Part shown: positions 15,371 through 28,619 of the stretch, piece by piece
Numbering within the stretch: position 1 is the stretch's first letter
Layout: each line of letters begins with the position of its first letter
NCBI RefSeq assembly: GCF_000235405.2
Contig: NC_017095.1
Span: forward strand, 893,501-957,500
Length of the DNA stretch: 64,000 nucleotides
Direction of reading: 5' to 3'
From: Fervidobacterium pennivorans DSM 9078
Lineage (GTDB): Bacteria > Thermotogota > Thermotogae > Thermotogales > Fervidobacteriaceae
The notes under the pieces: generated by a model
Databases searched by the model: none
Seen by the model: the letters and a program-made list of their open reading frames with translations, nothing else
What the model was told of the DNA's origin: nothing
Position numbers and translations under genes: made by a program

Positions 15371-16015
15371 TCAGACTTGCTCTTCTTGTTGAATATTCAC
15401 AGGTGAGTTCTTTAATATCATGTATGCCAATGTTTCAAACGAGAGCGTTATATCAACATCTTCAACCGGTATATTGGTCCTTAGCTTTATTGGCGAAAAG
15501 TTCACAATTCCTTTTATACCAGACTCTTCAACCAGTTCTGCAACGTATTGAGCGGCACTTTCAGGAACAGCGATAACAGCCATTTCGATGTTAAGCTCTT
15601 TGACTTTCTGATTCAGTTCGCTGATATGGAAAACAGGTATTCCAGCTATCTTTTTACCAACTTTCTGCCTGTCGTTATCAAACATAGCAACTACATTAAA
15701 TTTATGCTTCGCAAGTCCAGGATAATTTGCAAGCGCACTACCCAGATTTCCAGCACCTATAATCGCGACGTTCCATTCTTTATTCACACCAATGATGCGC
15801 GCTATTTCCGAAATCAACTTGCTCACATTGTAACCAAGTCCACGCTTACCAAATTCACCAAAGTATGACAAATCCTTTCTAACCTGACTTGGTTTAATGT
15901 TCAACCTGTCCGCTATATCTTGCGAAGATACAAAGTTCACACCTTCTTCTTTATACCTTGCTAAACAACGATAATAGAGTCCTAACCTTCTGACCGTTGG
16001 TTTTGGTATTTTCAT
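15371..16015 (-). CDS. rex: Redox-sensing transcriptional repressor Rex (canonical copy)
   Basis: A 214-residue Rex protein. The N-terminal winged helix has SQDIADRLNIKPSQVRKDLSYFGEFGKRGLGY (in two parts), the DNA-reading element of the family. The Rossmann NADH-binding domain starts with AIIGAGNLGSALANY near residue 86. Rex binds its operator when the NADH/NAD+ ratio is low and falls off when NADH binds. The ATG at 16015 follows GGGGGAG. Two tandem insertion sequences lie 26 bases upstream, separating the gene from its probable native promoter at 18219-18247. The Rex-type dyads at 19351 and 23466 are likely targets. Confidence 0.93.
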   Translation of the reverse strand: MKIPKPTVRRLGLYYRCLARYKEEGVNFVSSQDIADRLNIKPSQVRKDLSYFGEFGKRGLGYNVSKLISEIARIIGVNKEWNVAIIGAGNLGSALANYPGLAKHKFNVVAMFDNDRQKVGKKIAGIPVFHISELNQKVKELNIEMAVIAVPESAAQYVAELVEESGIKGIVNFSPIKLRTNIPVEDVDITLSFETLAYMILKNSPVNIQQEEQV

Positions 16016-16044: not shown

Positions 16045-16074
16045 ATGTTAACTAAAAGTATTGAAACTTTCCAA
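16045..16074 (-). promoter_or_regulatory. Possible outward promoter at the IS left end, facing rex
   Basis: Read leftward, TTGGAA (16069-16074) and TAACAT (16045-16050) are 18 bases apart, each matching the sigma70 consensus at 4 of 6 positions. Transcription would begin close to the IS edge and give a leader of about 23 bases with a good ribosome site before rex. The same bases occur in the copy facing glmU. Confidence 0.35.
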
Positions 16075-16141
16075 AAACCGCATTATCCTTATAAAGAGGG
16101 GACACCCCCCAACCAACTCTCGACAAAGGAGGTATCCCGAT

Positions 16142-17092
16142 ATGAACAACTCAACGCTCTCTTGTCCAAAATGCGGTTCCACCAGCTTATACAAAAACGG
16201 TCATGACAAATACGGTAACCAACAATTCCTTTGCAAACTCTGCCATCATTCTTTCAAACTCTCCCATTCTCACAAACGCAAAAACTTCTCTTTCCCTTAT
16301 CCCAAATGCACTTCTTGTGGTAAATCTATGCAAATTTACAAAGTCCGTCGCTCTTTCGTTGTCTTCCGTTGTAGAGCTTGTCGTACCAAAGATAGAGTAC
16401 CTTTTAACCTCCCCGAACCAGTCACCCTTATTCCTGAGAAATTTAAATATTTCCGCTTCCCTATCTTTTTCGTCTTAAAGGCTTTTGTTTTGTATATGAA
16501 ACACAATATGTCTTATCGCTCTCTTGCTCATTCTCTTAATATCAAAGTATCTCATGTCACCATATACAAATGGGTTATTAAATTGTGTACTTTATTCTCT
16601 GTACTTTTTCCAACATTTACCATCGAAAATGTTTTCTCAGTTCATGCTGATGAAACTGTTCTTGTGTTCAAAGAACAAAAGTACTATGTTTGGCTATTAG
16701 TTGATCACGAAACTAACTTAATTCTTTGTTGGCATGTCTCAAAGTATCGTGATATGGGACAAGTCAAAGTATTGCTCGAGAAGTTCTTTGGTAATTCAAA
16801 ACCTAGAAACATTGAACTTATTACTGATGGACTTGGTGCATATGAAAGTGCAGTAAAGCTGTTGTTCAGAAATATCAATCACGTAGTGGTACCGCTCGGT
16901 AAAAACAATCAATGTGAATCTAAGTTTTCATTGTTGAAAGACTTTTTCCGACTCAAGCGAGGGCTGAAGAATACGAAGAATTTAGCAAAATACATTCAAG
17001 GCTTTTGTGTAGTGAAGAATCTTTGGAAAACACACAATGGCAATATCAATTGCATTCTTTCACACTTACACTCTTTCATCACTACAAGTTAA
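16142..17092 (+). CDS. DDE transposase with N-terminal zinc ribbon (IS copy A)
   Basis: A 316-residue transposase. An N-terminal zinc ribbon (CPKCGSTSLYKNG, FLCKLCHHSF) is followed by a second cysteine pair (CTSCGKS, CRACRTK), a helix-turn-helix-like region (SYRSLAHSLNIKVSHVTIYKW) and a DDE catalytic core with D in VHADETVLVF, D in ITDGLGAYES and E in QCESKFSLLKDFF. The ATG follows GGAGG. Full length with no stops, so this copy could supply transposase to copies B and C. Confidence 0.88.
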   Translation: MNNSTLSCPKCGSTSLYKNGHDKYGNQQFLCKLCHHSFKLSHSHKRKNFSFPYPKCTSCGKSMQIYKVRRSFVVFRCRACRTKDRVPFNLPEPVTLIPEKFKYFRFPIFFVLKAFVLYMKHNMSYRSLAHSLNIKVSHVTIYKWVIKLCTLFSVLFPTFTIENVFSVHADETVLVFKEQKYYVWLLVDHETNLILCWHVSKYRDMGQVKVLLEKFFGNSKPRNIELITDGLGAYESAVKLLFRNINHVVVPLGKNNQCESKFSLLKDFFRLKRGLKNTKNLAKYIQGFCVVKNLWKTHNGNINCILSHLHSFITTS

Positions 17093-17106
17093 CACTATCT
17101 TAGTTT

Positions 17107-18165
17107 GATAATGTTAACTAAAAGTATTGAAACTTTCCAAAAACCGCATTATCCTTATAAAGAGGGGACACCCCCCAACCAACTCTCGACAAAGGAGGTA
17201 TCCCGATATGAACAACTCAACGCTCTCTTGTCCAAAAATGCGGTTCCACCAGCTTATACAAAAACGGTCATGACAAATACGGTAACCAACAATTCCTTTG
17301 CAAACTCTGCCATCATTCTTTCAAACTCTCCCATTCTCAAAAACGCAAAAACTTCCCTTTCCCTTATCCCAAATGCACTTCTTGTGGTAAATCTATGCAA
17401 ATTTACAAAGTCCGTCGCTCTTTCGTTGTCTTCCGTTGTAGAGCTTGTCGTACCAAAGATAGAGTACCTTTTAACCTCCCCGAACCAGTCACCCTTATTC
17501 CTGAGAAATTTAAATACTTCCGCTTCCCTATCTTTTTCGTCTTAAAGGCTTTTGTTTTGTATATGAAACACAATATGTCTTATCGCTCTCTTGCTCATTC
17601 TCTTAATATCAAAGTATCTCATGTCACCATATACAAATGGGTTATTAAATTGTGTACTTTATTCTCTGTACTTTTCCAACATTTACCATCGAAAATGTTT
17701 TCTCAGTTCATGCTGATGAAACTGTTCTTGTGTTCAAAGAACAAAAGTACTATGTTTGGCTATTAGTTGATCACGAAACTAACTTAATTCTTTGTTGGCA
17801 TGTCTCAAAGTATCGTGATATGGGACAAGTCAAAGTATTGCTCGAGAAGTTCTTTGGTAATTCAAAACCTAGAAACATTGAACTTATTACTGATGGACTT
17901 GGTGCATATGAAAGTGCAGTAAAGCTGTTGTTCAGAAATATCAATCACGTAGTGGTACCGCTCGGTAAAAACAATCAATGTGAATCTAAGTTTTCATTGT
18001 TGAAAGACTTTTTCCGACTCAAGCGAGGGCTGAAGAATACGAAGAACTTAGCGAAATATATTCAAGGATTTTGTGTAGTGAAGAATCTTTGGAAAACGCA
18101 CAATGGCAATATCAATCGCATTCTTTCACAATTACACTCTTTCATCACTACAAGTTAACACTATC
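17107..18165 (+). mobile_element. Insertion sequence, copy B (1059 bp), tandem to copy A
   Basis: Near-identical direct repeat of copy A with the same ends, starting 7 bases after copy A stops; the 7 bases are TTAGTTT, all but one base of the 8-bp target duplication. The right flank is TTTAGTTT (18166-18173). The transposase frame carries two one-base indels. Confidence 0.88.
17208..18158 (+). pseudogene. Transposase of IS copy B, two compensating frameshifts
   Basis: Compared with copy A, this copy has one extra A in the run near 17234-17240 (five instead of four) and one T fewer in the run near 17671-17676 (four instead of five). The first shift changes frame after about ten residues, removing the zinc ribbon, the second cysteine pair and the HTH region from the reading frame; the second returns to the catalytic frame, so the DDE core could be read only from internal starts. 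Both changes lie in homopolymers, so recent decay, slippage or sequence error are all possible. Confidence 0.85.
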
Positions 18166-19350: not shown

Positions 19351-19368
19351 TCGTGAAAGTAATCACGA
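19351..19368. promoter_or_regulatory. Rex-type operator
   Basis: TCGTGA-N6-TCACGA is a perfect 6+6 inverted repeat with the geometry of Rex sites (consensus near TTGTGAA-N4-TTCACAA). The same halves and spacing recur at 23466-23483 before hydC. Rex binding is an inference from site form, position and the two rex genes in the window. Confidence 0.78.
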
Positions 19369-19420: not shown

Positions 19421-19708
19421 ATGAACAATTCAAAAAGTGATGAAACTAAACTTGTAGTTTACGTATGCTTAGGAAGTTCATGCCATCTAAAAGGTGCGTA
19501 CAAGATAGTTGAGAAGCTCAAAGAATCTCTTATAGACTCACGTATTGAACTACGTGGGAGTCTTTGCATGGGCAATTGTTCGGAAGGGGTTAATGTAAGG
19601 TTTGGTAATGAACGTGTTGGAAATGTAAGCTTATTAAACGTGGAAAACTTGATTGAGAAAATCAAGGAAAGTCTCAAGGTGATAAATGAAAGCGAAGAAA
19701 GTAGGTGA
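19421..19708 (+). CDS. Thioredoxin-like [2Fe-2S] ferredoxin of the sensory hydrogenase operon
   Basis: A 95-residue thioredoxin-like ferredoxin with a four-cysteine pattern: YVCLGSSCHLKG and GSLCMGNCSEG. The same fold occurs in HydC/NuoE, at the HydB N-terminus and at the HydA C-terminus, all encoded just downstream. I chose the ATG at 19421 because the in-frame GTG at 19406 overlaps the GAGGGG ribosome site. As first gene of the operon it is likely an electron carrier for the sensory hydrogenase (inference). Confidence 0.88.
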   Translation: MNNSKSDETKLVVYVCLGSSCHLKGAYKIVEKLKESLIDSRIELRGSLCMGNCSEGVNVRFGNERVGNVSLLNVENLIEKIKESLKVINESEESR

Positions 19709-19715
19709 AAAAGCA

Positions 19716-21410
19716 ATGATAACAATCACAAGAAGCAGGTATATATTATCTGATAAGGCTAACTGTACGTATTGTTACAAATGCCTCAGGAATTGTCCAG
19801 TCAAAGCTATTAGCTTCAAACAAGGTGAATCGTTTGTTATTGAAGAGGAATGTGTGCTTTGCGGCACTTGTGTCAATATATGTCCGCAAAATGCGAAGCA
19901 ATACAGAAATGATGTCGAGAACTTCTTAAGTCTTGTGAGGAAACCTTTTATTTTGTCAATAGCTCCTTCTTTCTACGCTTATTTCAAAGAACCTTTTAAA
20001 GTCTTGTCCTTGCTTAAACAGTTAGGCTGCGTGTATATCTCTGAAACCTCTATTGGAGCAGAATACGTGTCAGCAGAGTATGCTAAGATATTTTCACATA
20101 GCAATAAACCTCTAATCACAACGGCGTGTCCTGTTGTTGTTGAACTCGTTGAAAAGTATTTTCCAGAATATGCTGATTATCTGTTTAAAGTTAAGTCCCC
20201 TGCAAGCGTTCATGCAGAGTTCCTGAAACATATGTTCGGAAATTTGCCAAAAGTTTTTGTTAGTCCGTGCATTGCGAAAAAGAAGGAACTTGAGGATGTG
20301 TTTGATGTAGTCTTGACTTTCGAAGAATTCGAAAATGGATTAGAAAAAATCTTTCACGAGAGTAACAATACTACCAAAGGGATAGCCACTTTGTTAGAAA
20401 ATATGCCGCAAACTTATCCAGACCCGCCACATCCAATCAGAGCGAGGTTTTATCCATCCTCCAAAGGAGTTGTTGATTCAGCTGCTGCATATGTTGGAGA
20501 AAATTTCCCATATTACGTGCTTGAAGGTGTTGAAAACATAATAGATTTCTTTAAGACGTTCAATGGTTTCAATGAAAAGATACTTATAGAAGCATCTGCA
20601 TGTGTCGGGGGCTGTATTAACGGTCCCACTATGAAAAAGGAAGACAACATATTATTAAGACATTCAAGGCTTCAAAAAGCTATTCGAATTTTAGAAAGTC
20701 TAAATGTAAAAAAGGTGGATAGGTTTTCGGTTCCCTTTGATCTGAAACGTTCTTTGAAAATACGAAAGGTCGAATACAATATACCTGAGTCAGAAGTTGA
20801 ACGTATTTTTGCAGAGATGGGAAAGACGGATCCTGAAAAGATATTAGACTGTACCGGCTGTGGATATGAAACGTGTCGTGACAAAGCAGTTGCTATTGCC
20901 GTTGGTAAGGCAGAAAAAGAAATGTGTTTTGCATATTTAGTTGAAAAGGTTTCCTCTGTGAGTAACCTTGTTGTTGAGGAAACACCAAATGCAATTGTGA
21001 TATTCAAAGATTCAAAAATTCTGTATATAAACAATGCAGCAGGGATTCTGTTTGCGAATTATCCGGAAGATATGATTATCAGTATTTGCCAAAGGGCAAA
21101 AGAAAGCTCAAACAAAATACATGAGCTTTATATTAATTCAAGAAAGGTCTATCTGTATCCGAAGGTTTTTGACTTACCAGACGATGGAGGCATAGTTGTT
21201 CTATTTGTAGACCTTACGGAGATGGTCCAACAAAGAGAACACATGAACGAGCTGAGAAGACGAACTATTGAAAAAATAGATGAAGTTTTGAACGAGCAAA
21301 TGAAATTGGCTCAAGACATAGCAAGTTTGCTTGGCGAATCGATAGCGGAAACAAAATCTAGGTTCGCAGAATTCAAGAAATTCCTGGGGGAAGAAAATGT
21401 TGACAACTGA
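19716..21410 (+). CDS. hydS: Sensory [FeFe]-hydrogenase, HydS type, with PAS domain
   Basis: A 564-residue protein. Domains in order: two [4Fe-4S] ferredoxin motifs (residues 17-60), an H-cluster domain, a four-cysteine Fe-S domain (CTGCGYETC...EKEMC, about 387-410), a PAS domain (about 425-510) and a C-terminal coiled coil. H-cluster motifs are TTACP (135; the proton-relay cysteine of TSCCP is alanine), SPCIAKKKELE (Cys185) and ASACVGGCINGP (Cys296, Cys300). The Ala substitution and PAS output domain mark a group C sensory enzyme, not a catalytic one. The ATG at 19716 follows AGGTGA at the preceding stop. It overlaps the phosphatase gene by 14 bases. Confidence 0.92.
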   Translation: MITITRSRYILSDKANCTYCYKCLRNCPVKAISFKQGESFVIEEECVLCGTCVNICPQNAKQYRNDVENFLSLVRKPFILSIAPSFYAYFKEPFKVLSLLKQLGCVYISETSIGAEYVSAEYAKIFSHSNKPLITTACPVVVELVEKYFPEYADYLFKVKSPASVHAEFLKHMFGNLPKVFVSPCIAKKKELEDVFDVVLTFEEFENGLEKIFHESNNTTKGIATLLENMPQTYPDPPHPIRARFYPSSKGVVDSAAAYVGENFPYYVLEGVENIIDFFKTFNGFNEKILIEASACVGGCINGPTMKKEDNILLRHSRLQKAIRILESLNVKKVDRFSVPFDLKRSLKIRKVEYNIPESEVERIFAEMGKTDPEKILDCTGCGYETCRDKAVAIAVGKAEKEMCFAYLVEKVSSVSNLVVEETPNAIVIFKDSKILYINNAAGILFANYPEDMIISICQRAKESSNKIHELYINSRKVYLYPKVFDLPDDGGIVVLFVDLTEMVQQREHMNELRRRTIEKIDEVLNEQMKLAQDIASLLGESIAETKSRFAEFKKFLGEENVDN

Positions 21411-22536
21411 GATATATTACGCACAAAAGAACAAAGCCGGCGAAGAGGTTTGCGGTGATACGGTAAAGTTTAAAAAGACCGAAGAAAAAACTGTTGTAAG
21501 TGTTTCAGATGGGCTTGGTAGTGGAATAAAGGCAAGCATCCTTTCAACCTTGACCGCTTCTATGGCTACAACGATGTTGCTCAGCGATGTGCCTATTTCT
21601 GAGGTCTTTTCGTCTATCATTTCAACGCTTCCAACGTGTAAAGTTCGGGGAATAAGTTATGCGACACTTGCCACTTGTTATGTTAACCATGTGAGTGGAG
21701 ATTGCCATATCTTTGAGTACGATTTTCCTGTAGTCCTCTTCTACAGAGAAGGTGAGTTCGTTGAGCTTGAAAAGAAAGTACACGAAATACAGGGTAGAAA
21801 AGTTCTCGAAAGCGGTATTCAAATTAAGCCCGGAGATATCGTCTTTTTGATGACAGATGGTATTTCGCAAGCGGGTATGGGAACTGTGAAGTATCCATTT
21901 GGTTTCGGAGTAGATAACGTTAAAAAAGAATTGAAGAATTTACTCGATAACAAGGTTGATTTGCAGAGTATCACAAAACATCTTGTTAGACTTGCCGAAG
22001 CACTTGACAGAGGCACAAAAGGTGATGACGCAACTGTTTGTGCGATAAAAATCAGAGAGAGAAGAAATCTAACAATCATGGTTGGACCACCTGAAAAGAA
22101 AGAGAATGACAAGATAGTTGTTGAGAAACTGATGAATGCAGAAGGTAAAAAAGTCATTTGTGGTGGGACGACGAGCCAAATTGTTGAGAAAATACTTGGT
22201 AAAAAGGTGGAGATAGATTTCTCAAGTATATCGGAATATTCCCCACCTATAGGATATATGGAGGGTGTAGACCTGGTTACTGAGGGAATTATCACATTGT
22301 CGCAGGTTTTCAGATACTATGAAAACCAAGACACAACTTTGGGTATTGGTGCTCAAAAACTTATCGATATGCTCGAAGAAGCTGATGTTATAACTTTTTT
22401 GGTTGGTAGGGCTATAAATCCCGCCCACCAAAACCCACTTTTTTCACATGATATCTCTTTGAAATTTAGGCTTATTCATGATATCTCTCAAACACTTAAA
22501 AAGCGTGGCAAGGTTGTAAAGATAGAGTATTACTGA
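21397..22536 (+). CDS. SpoIIE-type PP2C serine phosphatase
   Basis: A 379-residue protein. Residues 1-220 carry the SpoIIE/PP2C phosphatase core with the metal-binding motifs VSDGLGSGIKA (about 34), LMTDGISQAGMG (about 150) and GTKGDDATVCAIKI (about 210). A C-terminal domain of about 150 residues is less familiar. It is coupled to hydS, suggesting that H2 or redox sensing controls dephosphorylation of a partner protein (inference). No anti-sigma factor or STAS antagonist is encoded nearby. A terminator follows. Confidence 0.9.
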   Translation: MLTTEIYYAQKNKAGEEVCGDTVKFKKTEEKTVVSVSDGLGSGIKASILSTLTASMATTMLLSDVPISEVFSSIISTLPTCKVRGISYATLATCYVNHVSGDCHIFEYDFPVVLFYREGEFVELEKKVHEIQGRKVLESGIQIKPGDIVFLMTDGISQAGMGTVKYPFGFGVDNVKKELKNLLDNKVDLQSITKHLVRLAEALDRGTKGDDATVCAIKIRERRNLTIMVGPPEKKENDKIVVEKLMNAEGKKVICGGTTSQIVEKILGKKVEIDFSSISEYSPPIGYMEGVDLVTEGIITLSQVFRYYENQDTTLGIGAQKLIDMLEEADVITFLVGRAINPAHQNPLFSHDISLKFRLIHDISQTLKKRGKVVKIEYY

Positions 22537-22569
22537 TTCAACATGAGGCTTTTCAGAACAACAATGGAG

Positions 22570-22597
22570 AGAGGCTAGGAATATAGCCTCTTTTTAT
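22570..22597 (+). terminator. Terminator of the sensory hydrogenase operon
   Basis: AGAGGCTA pairs with TAGCCTCT around a six-base loop and is followed by TTTTATT. Confidence 0.88.
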
Positions 22598-22649
22598 TTA
22601 CTATCTAAGTTCTTCTGTTACTATCTAAAAATGCATTTTTCACCAGGAT

Positions 22650-22940
22650 TTGATTCTCGAAAGAAAGGTTAATGAGAACAACACAAACGTTAGCAACCTC
22701 GAAGATGGAACTCTCGAAGGTTATCTTACCACTTTCACAAGTTACATCTCACTTGCGGCAAATCTTGCCATTGCTGTTAAAGTAACAGACTTTATGCAAC
22801 TTAAGGTTGGAACAATTGCAATTGTTGGATATTCGCTAGACGGATGGCTTGTTAATGGTAAACCTCTTCAAGGACTAGCACAATACAGCAATTTTTTGCT
22901 GACGTATGGATTCTACGGAGGAGTTGGCTTCGGGTTATAA
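22650..22940 (+). pseudogene. Orphan ORF, possible C-terminal remnant of a beta-barrel or surface protein
   Basis: A 96-codon frame opens at a TTG with only a poor ribosome site and a stop just upstream. The peptide is rich in alternating hydrophobic, aromatic and glycine residues and ends YGFYGGVGFGL, like the last strands of a beta-barrel. I do not recognise a family. No promoter is visible, and it follows the terminator of the preceding operon. It may be the tail of a decayed gene or a small real gene. Confidence 0.35.
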
Positions 22941-23434
22941 CGAAATTACAAAACAAATAACGTAGCTGTGCTTCTACATACTTTTAATGTTGTTATCTGT
23001 CTTTGCCAATTACCACACGCTTTATCTTTATCATTCCAACAATTCTCAAGTGTTATTTCAGAAGAGGCTAATTTGCAAGGAAAATGGCAAACAAACATTT
23101 AACCTTTCTTATCTAATAATAATTTCCTTTTCTCGTCATAACGGGAGAAAAGATGTATGACTTTTCGATGCTTTTTATACCTTTCACTTGCTAAAACCTG
23201 CCCACAGACCAATCCTTAAGGTCTGCAACGATTGTGTTGTATCTACAAAAGTAGTTTCAAGATACTTATTCAGAATTCCCTGCAAAAGGTCACCCATCCT
23301 TTCTTAAGCTTCTCATCCAAACTAAACCCATCGATTTGAAAAAGACAGAGTGAGTAAAAGCCTATTTATTAGGTATTTATTAGGTAATCACACTCATTGC
23401 GAATTTATGTCGTGAAAAATTTCTAAATTACCCC
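22941..23434. other. Gene-free stretch before the hydABC promoter
   Basis: About 490 AT-rich bases with no credible gene. The only pattern noted is a two-unit tandem repeat of TATTTATTAGG at 23363-23384. It could be decayed coding sequence together with the orphan frame at 22650. Confidence 0.5.
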
Positions 23435-23463
23435 TTGACAGAGACAGCATTTTGTTTTATGCT
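23435..23463 (+). promoter_or_regulatory. Promoter of the hydCBA operon
   Basis: A perfect TTGACA (23435-23440) and TATGCT (23458-23463) are 17 bases apart. The Rex-type dyad starts three bases after the -10, the same arrangement as at 19319. Confidence 0.78.
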
Positions 23464-23465
23464 AT

Positions 23466-23483
23466 TCGTGAAAAGTATCACGA
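23466..23483. promoter_or_regulatory. Rex-type operator
   Basis: TCGTGA-N6-TCACGA has both half-sites identical to the dyad at 19351-19368 and lies over the predicted transcription start of hydCBA. Binding by one or both Rex proteins is inferred. Confidence 0.78.
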
Positions 23484-23515
23484 TAGGTTGTACGCAAAGA
23501 ATGTAGCAAAGATAG

Positions 23516-25929
<2,414 letters not shown>

Positions 25930-25963
25930 TCCTCAAGACCTGATTGTTAGTTTGGGAGGGTGA

Positions 25964-28619
<2,656 letters not shown>

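Follow-up and report, generated by a model that had tools for sequence, protein, structure and literature searches.

Three genes at positions 19421 to 22536 of the window, the 64-kb stretch of Fervidobacterium pennivorans DNA analyzed here, encode a ferredoxin (HydFd), a HydS-type hydrogenase, and a SpoIIE-type phosphatase, and the genes of a trimeric hydrogenase and a Rex repressor follow on the same strand (Table 1). Translation and Pfam searches bore out this three-gene set, which had been recognized in a preliminary description of the region. HydS matched PF02906 (E value, 8.1e-36), Fer4 (twice), and the FeS family PF04060 at residues 387 to 414, and the phosphatase matched PF07228 (E value, 1.5e-18; 67.9 bits against a cutoff of 25). 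As AGGTGA precedes the ATG at 19716, HydS probably starts there rather than at 19686. The end of the HydS gene and the start of the phosphatase gene overlap by 14 bp, and a G-rich ribosome-binding stretch (GGGGGAAGAAA) precedes the phosphatase ATG; the translational coupling of the two genes suggested earlier is thus plausible. Further upstream, at 16061 to 18158, lies a tandem pair of near-identical transposase copies, the second broken by frameshifts; the same element also occurs near the hydrogenase genes in relatives (L051 and L054).

Table 1. Predicted features of the HydS-phosphatase locus and the adjacent hydrogenase operon (window coordinates)
Feature	Positions	Strand	Basis or remark
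Rex-type palindrome TCGTGA-N6-TCACGA, ~70 bp before the ferredoxin ATG	19351..19368	+	Predicted; putative Rex binding
HydFd, thioredoxin-like [2Fe-2S] ferredoxin, 95 aa, TM1420 position	19421..19708	+	ATG 19421; PF01257, E 7.4e-8; position conserved
HydS, sensory [FeFe] hydrogenase, group C/M2f	ORF 19686..21410, start probably 19716	+	Pfam, residues
HydS 2x[4Fe-4S] ferredoxin domain, residues 23-72	19752..19901	+	Fer4 matches; Cys mostly 87/88
HydS H-cluster domain, residues 87-314, Ala147 at proton-relay position	19944..20627	+	PF02906; residues
HydS C-terminal Fe-S domain, residues 387-414	20844..20927	+	PF04060; four Cys 88/88
HydS PAS domain, residues ~436-509	20991..21212	+	PAS-only homologues; model and Foldseek
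HydS signalling helix, residues ~511-571 (~61 residues)	21216..21398	+	
HydS helix core motif QMKLAQDIASLLGESIAETK, residues 538-557	21297..21356	+	Shared with PAS-only proteins
SpoIIE/PPM-type phosphatase, 379 aa, no N-terminal linker	21397..22536	+	PF07228, catalytic Asp
Phosphatase C-terminal domain, residues 223-379 (157 residues), uncharacterised	22063..22533	+	AF2 pLDDT 92
Second Rex-type palindrome, upstream of hydC	23466..23483	+	Predicted
hydC-hydB-hydA, bifurcating [FeFe] hydrogenase (A6-like HydA)	23516..27976	+	
Rex repressor, overlaps hydA end	27924..28619	+	

The palindrome TCGTGA-N6-TCACGA had two exact matches in the window, where 0.09 would be expected with up to one mismatch. 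In several relatives, similar palindromes precede HydFd or HydC by 2 to 80 bp, many others having none by this pattern, and the Rex regulon of Thermotoga maritima takes in hydrogen-production genes (PMC8836258). Together, these observations make Rex control of both the ferredoxin-led and the hydC-led operon likely. Two Rex paralogues flank the region, at 15371 to 16015 and 27924 to 28619.

The order Fd-HydS-phosphatase-HydC-HydB-HydA-Rex recurs in approximately 30 Thermotogales loci, which places the locus far above chance. By this order, it is recognizable as the already known Fd-HydS-phosphatase-HydCBA-Rex locus of the Thermotogales (T. maritima TM1420-1426). In T. maritima, TM1420-1422 have been listed as a sensory CD(M2f) unit beside the bifurcating hydrogenase TM1424-1426 (PMC3561251), in the same order as here, and the preliminary description was correct both in stating that HydS-type proteins are known in Thermotoga and in regarding the phosphatase target as not settled. 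The F. pennivorans locus differs from that of T. maritima in a gap of approximately 980 bp between the phosphatase and hydC (22537 to 23515), in which ORF 22650-22940 is a possible gene remnant.

Residue conservation was counted across 88 aligned HydS proteins. Each H-cluster cysteine (C148, C195, C306, and C310) was present in 88/88 sequences, as was each of the four cysteines of the C-terminal Fe-S domain. Ala147 aligns with the cysteine of bifurcating HydA (C299 in CpI), a position taken by Ala in 48, Ser in 18, and Cys in 15 of the HydS proteins; TmHydS likewise has Ala (A131; PMC10055695). The position of CpI M353 is Ser193 here, as Ser in 6/88 sequences, whereas 80/88 have Gly, as does TmHydS (PMC8163306), and that of CpI M497 is Ser304. 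The modified H-cluster with Ala for the relay Cys and the extra Fe-S domain were therefore described correctly. With its Cys ligands, the altered relay Cys and methionine positions (Ala147, Ser193, and Ser304), and a C-terminal Fe-S cluster followed by PAS, HydS is assigned by sequence to the group C (M2f) sensory [FeFe] hydrogenases. HydS proteins of group D (M2e), such as TamHydS, share the modified H-cluster surroundings and the C-terminal Fe-S domain but lack the PAS domain. At one related locus (L082), HydS is in two ORFs (301 and 230 aa), as though a frameshift or stop had split the gene.

Pfam did not detect the PAS domain in this HydS alone. However, its PAS-only homologues match PAS families, and a model of the domain (pLDDT 84) matched solved PAS/LOV folds (Foldseek E value, 4.6e-5); the predicted PAS domain, claimed previously and supported by homologues and fold, is too divergent for Pfam. 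The coiled coil described behind it corresponds to a helix of approximately 61 residues. Its motif, QMxxAQEIAxLLGETxAETK, is about as conserved as the cluster cysteines, with Q543, L549, and G550 present in 88/88 HydS proteins and M539, A546, E551, and E555 in at least 86/88.

The catalytic residues Asp21, 38, 154, 210, and 211 of the phosphatase were present in 77/77 aligned sequences, which, along with the PF07228 match, agrees with its earlier classification as a SpoIIE-type PP2C enzyme; it is a member of the SpoIIE/PPM family with predicted Ser/Thr activity. A median of 22 residues precedes the first catalytic Asp in these 77 sequences, so an N-terminal linker is absent. Regulated PPM phosphatases such as RsbU and RsbP relay the signal through a helical linker within the same polypeptide (PMC12143880); the sensor plus linker in cis of the RsbU/RsbP type is missing from this phosphatase. 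A PAS or other sensor, a helical linker, and a PPM catalytic domain (PMC12143880) are parts common to RsbP/RsbU and the present system, but here a second polypeptide carries the sensor and linker, there is an extra C-terminal domain, and a STAS substrate is not obligatory (see below). The C-terminal domain (residues 223 to 379) had no match in Pfam and none in the PDB by Foldseek at an E value of 0.001; the best PDB match (E value, 5.7e-3; TM, ~0.35) was rejected as chance. With hhalign, no relation was found between the PAS-helix region and this domain. Among 103 Thermotogota genomes, 48 copies of the domain were found in 47 genomes, only in this phosphatase.

A scan with the phosphatase alignment returned 583 relatives. 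The 80 most similar were kept, a set ranked by similarity and not drawn at random; 79 of their loci were readable. In 75/79 loci of this set, a helix-bearing adaptor was encoded directly upstream of the phosphatase, which was HydS in 53 and a PAS-helix protein in 22. PAS-helix adaptors are approximately 170 aa long, lack the H-cluster, and end in the same helix motif as HydS. They are paired with the phosphatase in Cyanobacteria, Chloroflexi, Planctomycetes, Desulfobacteraceae, and others. In Cyanobacteria, the order was hoxE-F-U-Y-H-Fd-PAS-phosphatase-hoxW (e.g., L099, L105, L110, and L124; in L135, the module is also between hoxH and hoxW). As the module is inside the hox operon, its partner there is a [NiFe] hydrogenase. 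We found no open-access text on this cyanobacterial arrangement. The Synechocystis genes sll1225 and ssl2420, considered as possible module members, are both named in a paper on toxin-antitoxin systems.

One locus (L088; 4070 to 9140) encodes a HydS of 475 aa with the terminal helix but without PAS, along with a PAS-helix protein as a distinct gene product, a second hydrogenase, and a single phosphatase. This arrangement identifies the helix as the element common to both adaptors, and, judged by these alignments, it is their constant part. The H-cluster is the variable part, as many relatives have PAS and helix only and one protein has H-cluster and helix without PAS; H2 sensing would therefore be one input among others to a broader module. 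Repeated gain or loss of the H-cluster front end was considered and found unsupported, since the PAS-helix tree needs just two changes (on two long branches). In this tree, PAS-only adaptors cluster, save one row in a poorly resolved neighborhood, so that the split between HydS and PAS-only adaptors appears old rather than repeated.

The preliminary description proposed a path from H2 or redox state to the phosphatase. As a genetic linkage it is well supported by the adaptor-phosphatase adjacency in 75/79 loci, and it has already been described for hfs and TM1420-1422 (PMC11837493, PMC3561251), but the H-cluster is not a constant part of it. Within this limit, the cassette probably reads hydrogen or redox state and signals to a protein phosphatase. 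We propose that a low-activity H-cluster in HydS would sense H2 or redox state and that the resulting change of state would pass through the C-terminal Fe-S cluster and the PAS domain to the terminal helix. As the phosphatase has no N-terminal linker of its own, the QMxxAQEIAxLLGETxAETK helix would supply in trans the linker that RsbU and RsbP have in cis, and its contact would switch the phosphatase. The latter would then dephosphorylate a Ser/Thr protein encoded elsewhere, which need not be a STAS anti-anti-sigma factor. The proposal is drawn from sequence (domains, catalytic residues, gene overlap, adjacency, the helix in two adaptor types, and STAS-free genomes), and we consider it slightly favored as a whole, with a probability of roughly 0.55.

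The core of the system could instead be mainly a redox sensor, made up of the [2Fe-2S] ferredoxin and the PAS-helix, with H2 sensing by HydS as a lineage-specific addition. Indeed, PAS-helix proteins without an H-cluster serve the same phosphatase in the phyla named above, and HydFd was nearby in 62/79 readable loci (best 80 of 583 relatives). However, HydS was the commoner adaptor in that set (53/79), and it has kept all H-cluster cysteines; we consider this alternative rather unlikely. It is compatible with the HydS-helix proposal, the difference being mainly the dominant signal.

As for the target, the phosphatase could exert post-translational control over the hydrogenase itself, removing phosphate from a subunit of HydABC, of a related hydrogenase, or of HoxEFUYH. 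In favor of this, the recurring neighbors across phyla are hydrogenases (HydCBA, HfsD-like enzymes, or HoxEFUYH with HoxW/Hyp). Shared operons are also expected under transcriptional control, though, and a few loci have no hydrogenase within reach, so we regard a hydrogenase target as doubtful.

Partner switching is the typical mode of action of SpoIIE-type phosphatases. In its classical form, the phosphatase would dephosphorylate a STAS protein encoded in the genome, which would then sequester an RsbW-type kinase and free the target of that kinase. A search of the genome for STAS proteins and HPK-like kinases, as suggested earlier, recovered three STAS proteins, each a standalone protein carrying the D-S-x-G-L-G phosphosite, and a single RsbW-type HATPase, along with three other SpoIIE phosphatases. 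A PAS-SpoIIE phosphatase of approximately 360 aa in relatives is apparently in two reading frames in this genome (G000:C1:616274-616798; L041). All STAS and standalone RsbW-type genes are outside the window, as expected from the earlier statement that no anti-sigma/anti-anti-sigma pair is encoded there.

Such a pair does not seem to be obligatory, however. Among the 103 Thermotogota genomes, other SpoIIE phosphatases were found in 86/88 genomes with STAS and 0/15 without, and the RsbW-type protein was likewise absent from these 15. The module phosphatase breaks from this near-perfect co-occurrence: two relatives (G082 and G084; 98% complete) encode one and two module phosphatases, respectively, and lack STAS proteins (by PF01740 or PF13466), the RsbW-type protein, and any further SpoIIE phosphatase. 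As these genomes keep the module phosphatase with neither STAS nor RsbW, the gene inventories indicate that the partner switch is not obligatory for it, although a single genus counts as one evolutionary case. Furthermore, no STAS or HATPase was found among the 25 commonest of 183 families in 125 neighboring proteins, a scope that could miss a rare case. The module was present in 45/88 genomes with STAS and 2/15 without (103 genomes; Fisher test, 0.01, uncorrected for phylogeny), a weak correlation, so a STAS target may still serve where STAS exists. For the module phosphatase in general, we consider partner switching an improbable explanation.

No Hanks-type kinase (PF00069) was found in 11 genomes, F. 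pennivorans included, and no HPr kinase (PF07475) in 13 genomes, namely F. pennivorans and relatives. A CBS-CBS-HATPase_c_2 protein is encoded in this genome at 988.8 kb (G000:C1:988788-989129; L048). It is also present in STAS-free relatives (L187, L188, and L190) and is the sole HATPase_c_2 protein over the cutoff in G082 and in G084. As it occurs widely, both in genomes that have the module and in genomes that lack it, it is no more than a candidate for the opposing kinase. Mere cotranscription of HydS, ferredoxin, and phosphatase with no functional link is very improbable given their adjacency in many phyla, the two adaptor types, and the near-invariant helix.

In the hfs operon of Thermoanaerobacterium, the hydrogenase HfsB bears a PAS domain and HfsC is a serine phosphatase (PMC11837493). 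Judged by published architecture (PMC11837493) rather than aligned sequences, hfsABC has the same order of ferredoxin-like protein, PAS hydrogenase, and phosphatase; in hfsABCD, the monomeric hydrogenase HfsD follows, whereas here the trimeric HydCBA and Rex do. Deletion phenotypes indicate that hfs acts in regulation (PMC5707799, PMC11837493). T. saccharolyticum strains lacking hfsA or hfsB had higher ethanol and a higher level of the adhE transcript, while those lacking hfsC, hfsD, or hfsABCD showed no rise in ethanol (PMC5707799). This difference suggests that HydS more likely restrains the phosphatase (HfsC) than turns it on. However, overexpression of hfsD alone in a full hfs deletion of T. 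thermosaccharolyticum gave the high-ethanol phenotype (PMC11837493), so any effect of HfsC may run through hfsD alone; the hfs epistasis is incomplete.

More tentatively, and at less than even odds, the module may be an unrecognized system spanning phyla, in which a single PPM phosphatase, distinguished by a new C-terminal domain, connects in trans to interchangeable sensors (H-cluster, PAS, or both) by way of a dedicated docking helix, serves both [FeFe] and [NiFe] hydrogenases, among them those of cyanobacterial hox operons, and operates without STAS, RsbW, or a Hanks-type kinase, with the CBS-HATPase protein as a possible opposing kinase.

The question of what HydS signals to dates back to its naming, and STAS partner switching is now removed as the obligatory answer for its phosphatase. 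The module also forms a bridge from fermentative [FeFe] systems to the [NiFe] hox operons of cyanobacteria, for which controlling H2 production has applied interest, and as hfsB deletions raise ethanol yield in several thermophiles, the circuit is of practical value. The part most worth following would be a phosphatase that takes its docking helix in trans from exchangeable sensors and is untied from STAS.
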